In this document: in pieces, positions 24,038 through 61,986 of the stretch
Layout of the letters: every line of letters begins with the position of its first letter
How positions within the stretch are numbered: position 1 is the first letter of the stretch
Made by a program: the position numbers and the translations under genes
The notes under the pieces: model-generated
Told to the model about the DNA's origin: nothing
The model's database searches: none
Seen by the model: only the letters and a program-made list of their open reading frames with translations
From: Agarivorans sp. Alg241-V36
GTDB lineage: Bacteria; Pseudomonadota; Gammaproteobacteria; Enterobacterales; Celerinatantimonadaceae
Assembly: GCF_900537085.1 (NCBI RefSeq)
Contig: NZ_UNRE01000002.1
Coordinates: forward strand, 496,289 to 560,288
Direction: 5' to 3'
DNA: 64,000 bases

Positions 24038-24114
24038 GGAGTGGTAGTTCAGTTGGTTAGAATACCGGCCTGTCACGCCGGGGGTCGCGGGTTCGAGTCC
24101 CGTCCACTCCGCCA
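24038..24114 (+). tRNA. tRNA-Asp (GTC), copy 1
   Basis: The 77-base sequence matches E. coli tRNA-Asp closely: acceptor GGAGTGG pairs with CCACTCC, the anticodon loop CTGTCAC carries GTC, TTCGAGT forms the T-loop, and CCA is encoded. First of four identical copies. Confidence 0.98.
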
Positions 24115-24150
24115 AGTCTGTTTAGTCTGTGTGTAATGTTTCGATGTAGC

Positions 24151-24227
24151 GGAGTGGTAGTTCAGTTGGTTAGAATACCGGCCTGTCACGCCGGGGGTCG
24201 CGGGTTCGAGTCCCGTCCACTCCGCCA
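24151..24227 (+). tRNA. tRNA-Asp (GTC), copy 2
   Basis: Identical over all 77 bases to copy 1, with encoded CCA; a 36-base unrelated spacer separates them. Confidence 0.98.
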
Positions 24228-24250
24228 ACGACGAAACAATTTAATGCGTA

Positions 24251-24327
24251 GGAGTGGTAGTTCAGTTGGTTAGAATACCGGCCTGTCACGCCGGGGGTCG
24301 CGGGTTCGAGTCCCGTCCACTCCGCCA
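24251..24327 (+). tRNA. tRNA-Asp (GTC), copy 3
   Basis: Identical to copies 1 and 2; the spacer before it is 23 bases. Confidence 0.98.
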
Positions 24328-24366
24328 GCATTAAAGTAGTAATACAATCGTGACGTTAGTATATGC

Positions 24367-24443
24367 GGAGTGGTAGTTCAGTTGGTTAGAATACCGGCCT
24401 GTCACGCCGGGGGTCGCGGGTTCGAGTCCCGTCCACTCCGCCA
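24367..24443 (+). tRNA. tRNA-Asp (GTC), copy 4
   Basis: Identical to the other copies; the spacer before it is 39 bases and a terminator follows. Confidence 0.98.
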
Positions 24444-60452: not shown

Positions 60453-60675
60453 TCGCTGTTGTTGCATCGTTTAGGTGCGATTGTTCATCACTTAACTAAG
60501 CCTGTGGCTCGTCAATATTTGCTGTGCTTAACATGGTTGCAGCTTAGTTGTGCTAAGCATTGCTATATGAACCAAGAGTAAAGAGTGATTCCTCTGAATT
60601 TTTACCTCTTTTGGTGTATATTTTGCTTCGTTAATTCTTGAGTTTAGTTGTTGTACTTCGTGATTTAGGTTGTTT

Positions 60676-61986
60676 ATGTCGGTTCTTTCCCCAAACAGTG
60701 TTTTTACTTCGCTTCAGCAAGATGGCCCCTTTTCGGTGAGCCGTGATGCCTTTGTGGCGCACCCATTTTCTACTAGCGTTCGCAGCTGGGTAAAACGCTT
60801 GCAGCAAGACAGCAATAATGTGTCTAAGTATCGCGCGCTGCGCAGCCAAATATTTGAGTTTTTGGGCATCGACAGCTTCTCACAAATCCAAAACTTAATA
60901 GACGATGTAAGCTTGCGTAAACAGCGCAGTGAGCGAGCCTTATCTCTATTGGGGAATATGTTTGGTATTGATGGCAACTTGAATGAAATTGAGAGCCGAA
61001 TTGATGAATATGCGCGTACTGCAGACGCGGTGATTCACTCAATTAAGGGGAAAATTCTTTCTCCTTATGCTTCGCATATTGAAAATACCAACGAAATTGA
61101 AGTGACCAATAATCCGGTAGAGCTATTGTTGATTATGTTCAACGATGACTACCACAAAAAAGCCCGCTTTGAAGCGCGGCGTAAACTGATTCTAATGACC
61201 TTGGCTGGTAGTATCGAGCAGCGTGAGCGAGAGACCGAAATTGAAAATAAATTCTCGGCATTTCTCGAGTTTTTAAATGGTTATGTGTGGAGCAAGGAAC
61301 TCAAGATTGGTGAGTTAGACCCAGTGTACTTGCATTCCAAACATCCAAGTGAAGACTACGCTTGTAGTGAGGTTAAAGTATTAAATCCTCAGCAAGCTAA
61401 GCTTATTCAACGTGGTGAGCGCGAGAAGCTAACTCTTCTTAAACGCCGTAGCTTTAGTGTGGGCGAGCGTAAAATTCCCATCTACGTATCTATTCGCAAA
61501 AAGCCGCCAGAAGCCAAAGTATTAAAACTGCTTCGCAAAAACCAAAAGAATCCAGCGGTTGCGGTTGATGATGAATTAGGGCTTATGGCGGTGCTAGATT
61601 CAGTTAGTGATATTAAGGCTTTTCAAAAGCACCTCACACGCAGTGCTTCTAGTGCTAATTCTTTAATGGTGCTTGAAGATATATCCGACACCTTAACCGA
61701 ACGGTCTGAATATCGTGGCAGGGCGGTGGGCTCTAGTGAAAAAACGCCAATGATGAAGTTTTTTGCTCGCTTAGGCGGGATGCGGGTGGAGTTTATTATT
61801 CATACCAACCGTACTTGGCTTAACTATATGTACCAGCAAGATGTGGCGCACAACGAGTATGAAGTAAAAAGAATGTTCGACACAGGGGTCATTGAGCTGC
61901 TATTCCCTATGGACATTTTTCATTTAAATCACCGTAAAACCCGTGATGAAATGATTCAATTTTTCAGAAAACAGATTGAGGCTTAA
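60676..61986 (+). CDS. Unrecognised 436-aa protein with faint RelA/SpoT-like features
   Basis: No family is recognised. The N-terminal half (1-200) is helical and charged; the C-terminal half (~260-415) has alternating strands and helices. Three elements fall in the order of a (p)ppGpp synthetase: IPIYVSIRKK (268-276) like the basic ATP-site strand, DDELGLMAVLD (298-308) like the D-x-x-G-x-R motif but with Met in place of Arg, and RVEFIIHTNRTWLN (370-383) like VEVQIRT. This is a resemblance by eye only. No signal peptide or membrane segment is visible. ATG at 60676 was chosen over a GTT-to-ATG extension (60670). It stands alone between focA and the copper-like trio; a ~220-base upstream gap has no terminator for focA. 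Confidence 0.7.
   Translation: MSVLSPNSVFTSLQQDGPFSVSRDAFVAHPFSTSVRSWVKRLQQDSNNVSKYRALRSQIFEFLGIDSFSQIQNLIDDVSLRKQRSERALSLLGNMFGIDGNLNEIESRIDEYARTADAVIHSIKGKILSPYASHIENTNEIEVTNNPVELLLIMFNDDYHKKARFEARRKLILMTLAGSIEQRERETEIENKFSAFLEFLNGYVWSKELKIGELDPVYLHSKHPSEDYACSEVKVLNPQQAKLIQRGEREKLTLLKRRSFSVGERKIPIYVSIRKKPPEAKVLKLLRKNQKNPAVAVDDELGLMAVLDSVSDIKAFQKHLTRSASSANSLMVLEDISDTLTERSEYRGRAVGSSEKTPMMKFFARLGGMRVEFIIHTNRTWLNYMYQQDVAHNEYEVKRMFDTGVIELLFPMDIFHLNHRKTRDEMIQFFRKQIEA

Follow-up and report, generated by a model that had tools for sequence, protein, structure and literature searches.

A predicted RelA/SpoT-fold protein family of Agarivorans and Desulfobulbales with a conserved donor site and a probably altered acceptor site

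The 436-amino-acid protein P0001, encoded without annotation in a stretch of 64,000 nucleotides of Agarivorans sp. Alg241-V36 (hereafter referred to as the window), very probably carries an RSH-type (RelA/SpoT-type) nucleotidyltransferase domain in its C-terminal half. The reading favoured here, with a confidence modestly above even, is that it represents an unclassified branch of the RSH superfamily and probably transfers pyrophosphate from ATP to an acceptor other than the usual one. A widespread family that is not recognised by Pfam, with a largely intact donor site and a rebuilt acceptor site, would widen the chemistry associated with the RSH fold. No published description of the family was found in the literature searched, which under-covers subscription journals. 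The available part of the 2011 RSH survey gives names and taxa for 12 SAS groups, including bdRel of the beta/delta-proteobacteria, with RelV, gRel and capRel also among the subgroups (PMC3153485).

The open reading frame at 60676-61986 of the forward strand, part of the original prediction, was confirmed by the ORF listing. Its ATG at 60676 is common to seven homologous sequences, the alternative start given by the ORF finder being a TTG two codons upstream. Comparison of the window gene with two relatives from the genus gave 132 synonymous and 8 non-synonymous codon differences for one (L002) and 196 and 43, respectively, for the other (L007); judged by this synonymous excess, the gene is under purifying selection. 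The gene and the parts of its product referred to below are as follows.

60676-61986, forward strand: coding sequence of the 436-aa RelA/SpoT-fold protein P0001 (ORF call; start and length conserved among homologues)
60772-61287, forward strand: N-terminal all-helical domain, aa 33-204 (secondary structure of the model)
61288-61461, forward strand: beta-rich segment ahead of the catalytic fold, aa 205-262 (model)
61462-61884, forward strand: predicted RelA/SpoT-type nucleotidyltransferase (SYNTH-like) fold, aa 263-403 (model, structure searches)
61495-61536, forward strand: putative donor (ATP) site motif R274-x-K276-x7-K284-x2-R287 (mapped on published spacing)
61570-61587, forward strand: putative metal/adenine site D299-x-x-G302-x-M304, with Met for Arg (alignment, sequence)
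61675-61689, forward strand: acidic strand E334-D335-I-S-D338, immediately before the loop at the G-loop position (model, alignment)
61690-61752, forward strand: loop at the G-loop position, aa 339-359 (model, alignment)
61783-61806, forward strand: putative second metal-site strand R370-V-E372-F-I-I-H376-T377, counterpart of E-x-Q-x-R-T (alignment, sequence)

Searches with the P0001 sequence against Pfam, NCBIfam, PADLOC, PHROGs and the PDB sequences gave no match in any of them at E-values up to 10. The PF04607 profile, which likewise did not detect P0001, has just two matches in this genome, with open frames of 744 and 705 aa, presumably RelA and SpoT; for the 77 aligned family members, PF04607 was absent among the 25 of 29 matched Pfam families that were listed. 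For profile-profile comparison with hhalign, three reference profiles were built from RelA/SpoT synthetases (27 rows), other SAS proteins (3 rows) and RelV-like proteins (10 rows). Rows were available for 27 of the 30 RelA/SpoT loci and for 13 of the 15 SAS/RelV-like loci, the remainder being dropped for want of the anchor motif. The family was not significantly similar to any of the three profiles taken alone, the best local matches lying elsewhere, whereas the positive control in the same set-up, RelA/SpoT against RelV-like, gave a Prob of 79.8. With the combined 40-row RSH profile (Neff 5.6), the best local match fell at the predicted E372 on the E-x-Q-x-R-T strand (P 0.012-0.021). Proof of RSH membership by profile-profile comparison was thus not obtained, the hhalign results being non-significant.

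An AlphaFold2 model from a 7-row alignment was unusable (pLDDT 35) and a 77-row alignment was used instead, giving a model with a pLDDT of 90.8 and a pTM of 0.89. The N-terminal helical domain, best conserved at aa 161-204, and the beta-rich segment precede the catalytic fold, the boundaries of which (aa 263-403) were drawn by eye from the secondary structure. From aa 263 onwards the model has a strand (265-275), a helix (278-287), a strand (301-307), a helix (310-326) and a strand (332-338), followed by a weak loop, two strands (360-366 and 369-377) and further helices. The three short elements on which a remote RelA/SpoT-like core had originally been proposed, IPIYVSIRKK, DDELGLMAVLD and RVEFIIHTNR, are located at aa 267-276, 298-308 and 370-379, respectively. 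When the structural comparison that had been set beforehand as a check on this proposal was run, the first 26 rows of Foldseek against the PDB were all RelA/SpoT-type synthetases, the best being 6fgx (E 1.2e-3, probability 1.00, TM 0.22 by query and 0.45 by target). No PDB match was found by Foldseek at an E-value of 1e-3 or below, and the best rows have low whole-chain TM and large rmsd; the SYNTH fold is thus seen in the predicted model only, with a Foldseek E-value just above 1e-3. Of the top 20 VIA-align rows (Z 7.4-9.2), 19 are named RSH and the remaining one is 3l9d (smu.1046c), taken here to be an RSH synthetase; these are followed by TdT at Z 7.3 and other nucleotidyltransferases mixed with further RSH rows, and by the tool's own warning a Z below 8 may reflect merely a common arrangement. 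Four of the seven top rows in the BFVD library of viral structures are also named RelA/SpoT. The confident model and the RSH proteins at the top of both the Foldseek and VIA-align results support the proposed remote RelA/SpoT-like fold.

The moderate Z and E values and the lack of sequence-profile detection would fit a chance sharing of a common alpha/beta arrangement by a protein of unrelated function. The uniformity of the RSH top rows in Foldseek and VIA-align, and the independent conservation of six donor and metal residues in register, make this very improbable.

These residues were compared with those of characterised synthetases. In the available part of the SaRelP report, R78 and R112 stack the adenine, K80, K88, R91 and S84 hold the phosphates, D107 and E174 bind Mg and the G-loop Tyr151 binds guanosine (PMC5794853), and in the available part of the FaRel2 report the donor residues are R64, K66, S70, K74 and R77 (PMC11782079). 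The spacing of R274, K276, K284 and R287 in P0001 is exactly that of R78/K80/K88/R91 and R64/K66/K74/R77 as given in those parts. These four residues, together with D299, G302 and E372, are invariant in all 77 aligned rows, which come from two phyla. D299 and E372 are the putative Mg-binding Asp and Glu, an equivalence based on the order of the secondary structure elements and the motifs. Two donor-side positions are changed: A280 replaces the donor-site Ser (S84 of SaRelP), the 77 rows having Ala (72), Thr (3), Ser (1) or Asp (1), and M304 replaces the second adenine-stacking Arg (R112 of SaRelP), with Met in 75 rows and Leu in two, as had been noted earlier from the single sequence.

The specificity of this pattern was examined with a regular expression for the donor and metal residues, built on the published SaRelP/FaRel2 spacing, the final [RH]T being loosened to admit the His of the family. 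Among 1138 non-family ORFs of at least 200 aa from the collected loci it was found in 13, one being a divergent family member (L075) and the other 12 RelA/SpoT-type proteins from loci that had been fetched for PF04607. It matches all 90 ORFs picked as family, a figure that is partly circular because the motifs used for picking overlap the pattern, so that the invariance in 77/77 rows is the cleaner figure. Of 28 long RSH proteins, just 10 carry it, and it is therefore specific rather than sensitive. Shuffling of residues 205-436 reproduced the pattern in 27 of 200,000 trials; on this sequence-based measure it is in excess of chance expectation.

A catalytically dead RSH relative, retained as a nucleotide-binding sensor or scaffold, would fit the presence of Ala for Ser (72/77) and Met for Arg (75/77) and the missing invariant G-loop Tyr. 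Against it, the Lys/Arg and Asp/Glu residues mapped as phosphate-binding and metal-binding, respectively, are invariant in 77/77 rows across two phyla, which is unusual for a dead enzyme, and such a role is considered rather unlikely.

The acceptor side also appears to differ from that of the known synthetases. The loop at aa 339-359 corresponds to the G-loop by position only, the distance from T357 to E372 being close to the Tyr-to-Glu distance in the two long RSH proteins of this genome. Within it G352 and T357 are invariant, and no invariant Tyr is present at aa 339-362 among the 77 rows, Y346 occurring in 53 of them. The label 'alarmone-like', given in the original prediction, is consequently not established, the guanine-binding tyrosine having no invariant counterpart. 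The strand immediately preceding the loop contributes E334 (77/77) and D338 (76/77).

Pyrophosphate transfer is the reaction of characterised RSH synthetases, which make (p)ppGpp, (p)ppApp and pyrophosphorylated tRNA. In the mechanism proposed for P0001, the predicted synthetase fold of the C-terminal domain (aa ~263-403) would hold ATP and Mg via R274, K276, K284, R287, D299 and E372, with Met in place of the second adenine-stacking Arg on the donor side. Since the residues expected to hold ATP and Mg are conserved, binding of ATP-Mg and transfer of pyrophosphate are the most likely activities of P0001. The acceptor side appears to be rebuilt, with an acidic strand ahead of the loop and without the invariant G-loop tyrosine, and the acceptor is for this reason probably not GDP/GTP in the usual mode; candidates are another nucleotide, an RNA or a protein. 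The conserved N-terminal helical domain and the beta segment may serve in the recognition of the acceptor or of a signal. Classification of P0001 as a (p)ppGpp synthetase is not warranted, since the second adenine-stacking Arg is replaced, the G-loop Tyr has no invariant counterpart and PF04607 is blind to the protein.

An alternative to pyrophosphate transfer is nucleotidylation, in which an enzyme of the same broad fold would attach AMP or UMP to a target protein, for instance PII or a component of nitrogenase; GlnD and GlnE transfer nucleotides to proteins in this manner. The additional acidic residues E334 (77/77) and D338 (76/77), in an arrangement that resembles three-carboxylate sites, the TdT/TUT-type rows following the RSH rows at Z 6-7.3, and the occurrence of PII and NifH genes close to some family members are consistent with such an activity. 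The R-x-K-x7-K-x2-R donor motif with RSH spacing and the higher rank of RSH rows over all other nucleotidyltransferases in Foldseek and VIA-align argue against it, and it is held to be unlikely.

P0001 was also compared with the known groups. It shares with RelP/RelQ (SAS2/SAS1) the predicted fold, the R-x-K-x7-K-x2-R donor motif and the metal-site Asp and Glu, but differs from them in the replacement of Ser by Ala and of the adenine-stacking Arg by Met, the missing invariant G-loop Tyr, His for Arg in E-x-Q-x-R-T, the extra N-terminal helical domain and beta segment, and the lack of a PF04607 match. The long RSH proteins (RelA, SpoT, Rel) similarly have helices followed by the synthetase fold, with D-x-x-G-x-R where P0001 has Met for the Arg. 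No HD hydrolase, TGS or ACT domain was recognised by Pfam in a search with full-length P0001, and the 'HD' dipeptide does not occur anywhere in the protein. Ten proteins of related genomes (L152-L161), which we take to be RelV-like, have an E-V-Q-[LI]-H-L strand in which His takes the place of the RelA Arg (compare H376), and most of them then carry H-x-x-Y, similar to H392-x-x-Y395 of P0001. Unlike P0001, they have no Arg at the first position of R-x-K but retain G-Y-R-D, all these likenesses and differences having been read by eye; their profile compared with the P0001 family by hhalign was not significant. The ten proteins have hydrophobic N-termini and are perhaps exported, and some of them fall under the PF04607 cut-off. 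The toxSAS/CapRel tRNA pyrophosphokinases (FaRel2, CapRel-SJ46) resemble P0001 in the donor spacing (FaRel2), the fold match and the helices N-terminal to the synthetase fold. They keep the G-loop Tyr, given as Y128 for FaRel2 and Y155 for CapRel in the available parts of the reports (for CapRel, PMC9712102), whereas the P0001 family has no invariant one, and they have an antitoxin or a fused regulator, whereas none was recognised for P0001, a conserved gene of its genus.

The distribution of the family was examined in several genome samples. Among 99 relatives the gene was found in 10, comprising all seven sampled genomes of the genus (its own included), two of the same family and one Psychromonas. 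The gene had been described as lying in the most accessory part of the window, a view that its presence in 7/7 sampled genus genomes overturns. In a relative of the genus (L011), the sole one for which longer flanks were examined, the four upstream ORFs (1141, 320, 669 and 279 aa) occur in the same order as in the window. A genome-contig scan gave 25 loci in Agarivorans, Psychromonas, Celerinatantimonas, Desulfobulbales, other MAGs and one MAG labelled Tepidiphilus. In the Desulfobulbales, the NCBI order of Desulfosediminicola (G470), 165 of 242 genomes gave a match at an E-value of 0.01, a few of which are short pieces. Broader samples gave 3 of 398 Pseudomonadota genomes (its own, one more of the genus and one Psychromonas), 2 of 249 genomes from the phylum that contains G471 (namely G471 and one Psychromonas) and 6 of 247 genomes of the phylum of G470, all six already included in the 242; no matches outside the Desulfobulbales and a few gammaproteobacteria were found in these three samples. 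Desulfosediminicola flagellatus has a second, divergent family copy (L076, G470:C1:5681926-5683218), about 50% identical to P0001.

No relatives were found in viral contigs and plasmids, and four phage matches at E-values of 3-4 were taken as chance. These searches and PADLOC gave no support for a mobile or defence gene. A toxSAS-type toxin or phage-defence enzyme is suggested by the structural matches to CapRel (Foldseek, VIA-align) and FaRel2 (Foldseek), and is regarded as highly improbable in view of the missing PADLOC match, the viral, plasmid and phage results, the absence of a constant neighbour among ORFs of at least 80 aa and the presence of the gene in 7/7 sampled genus genomes and 165/242 Desulfobulbales.

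A quick unrooted tree was inferred from 77 rows, left after removal of rows redundant at 90% or more from 114. The 12 gammaproteobacterial rows come together in a single clade (SH-aLRT 100), which lies within a 39-row group, starred in the tree, with Desulfobulbales rows, for which a single transfer into the gammaproteobacteria is the simplest reading of this unrooted topology. The family member of the MAG labelled Tepidiphilus (L033, 57%) lies on a long branch among Desulfobulbales rows, in a genome with nifH, and may represent either a transfer or mis-binning of the MAG.

The gene neighbourhoods were compared as well. In the window, a formate/nitrite transporter (PF01226) precedes the gene, and the gammaproteobacterial loci have no constant neighbour among ORFs of at least 80 aa. 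In one part of the Desulfobulbales, the recurrent neighbours are an ammonium transporter, PII, a class-I glutamine amidotransferase, a homocitrate-synthase-like protein, a GAF-sigma54 activator, NifH and a nitrogenase component-1 protein. These families were named from the Pfam matches of one representative each and the others assigned by BLAST to the representatives, so that the NifV-like and NifDKEN-like classes may include relatives. In this part, to which L033 also belongs, 23 of 41 loci have one or more of the Amt, PII, NifH, NifDKEN-like and NifV-like genes within 6 kb, compared with none of the 30 loci from the clade of Desulfobulbales closest to the gammaproteobacteria and none of the 13 gammaproteobacterial loci, the window included; some contigs end sooner, the mean flank scanned being 9.9-11.4 kb in all, and some loci were grouped as near-copies of tree rows or by name, not being themselves in the tree. 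On the same strand and within 200 bp of the family gene are the amidotransferase in 10 and the NifV-like gene in 7 of the 41 loci. The original statement that the gene has no obvious partner and sits alone thus fails for the family, relatives elsewhere having nitrogen-gene neighbours. The class-I glutamine amidotransferase at L103:5150-5890 is one of several similar cases that repeatedly adjoin the family gene.

Co-occurrence with nifH was counted at a limit of E 1e-60 for the 242 Desulfobulbales genomes and at the curated cut-off for the 99 relatives. The Desulfobulbales comprise 125 genomes with the gene and nifH, 40 with the gene only, 26 with nifH only and 51 with neither (Fisher p 8e-10, ignoring phylogeny and MAG incompleteness), and the corresponding numbers for the relatives are 9, 1, 6 and 83 (Fisher p 3e-8, with the same two factors ignored). 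For the 111 genomes with both positions among the matches listed, the two genes lie within 10 kb on one contig in 15 and on different contigs in 80. The source genome of Agarivorans has nifH on another contig. In 7 of 10 Psychromonas genomes carrying the gene nifH was not seen, which counts against a strict nif role, and the lack of nitrogen-type neighbours in the 30 loci of the nearest Desulfobulbales clade and the 13 gammaproteobacterial loci counts against a nitrogen link. The recurrent PII, Amt, amidotransferase, NifV and NifH neighbours suggest a role in nitrogen status in one part of the Desulfobulbales; for Agarivorans such a link is no more than suggestive. In a fuller form of the favoured reading, which is put forward tentatively and is on balance doubtful, a branch with the RSH donor site acting on a new acceptor would originally have belonged to the control of nitrogen fixation and ammonium in Desulfobulbales and would later have passed to marine gammaproteobacteria. 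Pyrophosphorylation would then be a signal or switch for nitrogen status, encoded beside PII, Amt, glutamine amidotransferase, NifV and NifH. The location of family genes next to those for PII, Amt and Nif proteins, seen in one part of the Desulfobulbales, would tie an alarmone-type enzyme to nitrogen control in a testable manner.

Upstream of the gene, one short element is conserved.

60610-60628, forward strand: 19-bp block TTTGGTGTATATTTTGCTT, likely promoter element (alignment of six Agarivorans sequences, Psychromonas comparison)

The block is identical in the six aligned Agarivorans upstream regions, the surrounding sequence having diverged, and is partly kept in the aligned Psychromonas sequences; this conservation makes it likely to be a promoter element. 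A GG-N10-GC fit is seen in Agarivorans only, and a sigma-54 promoter was rejected, the GG being absent from the aligned Psychromonas sequences. Sigma-54-like sites (score of at least 12) occur upstream of 18 of 90 family genes and 77 of 502 other ORFs, and this lack of enrichment likewise led to the rejection of sigma-54. The block may therefore be an ordinary promoter element. Elsewhere in the window, positions 24038-24443 hold four tandem tRNA-Asp genes with one anticodon.
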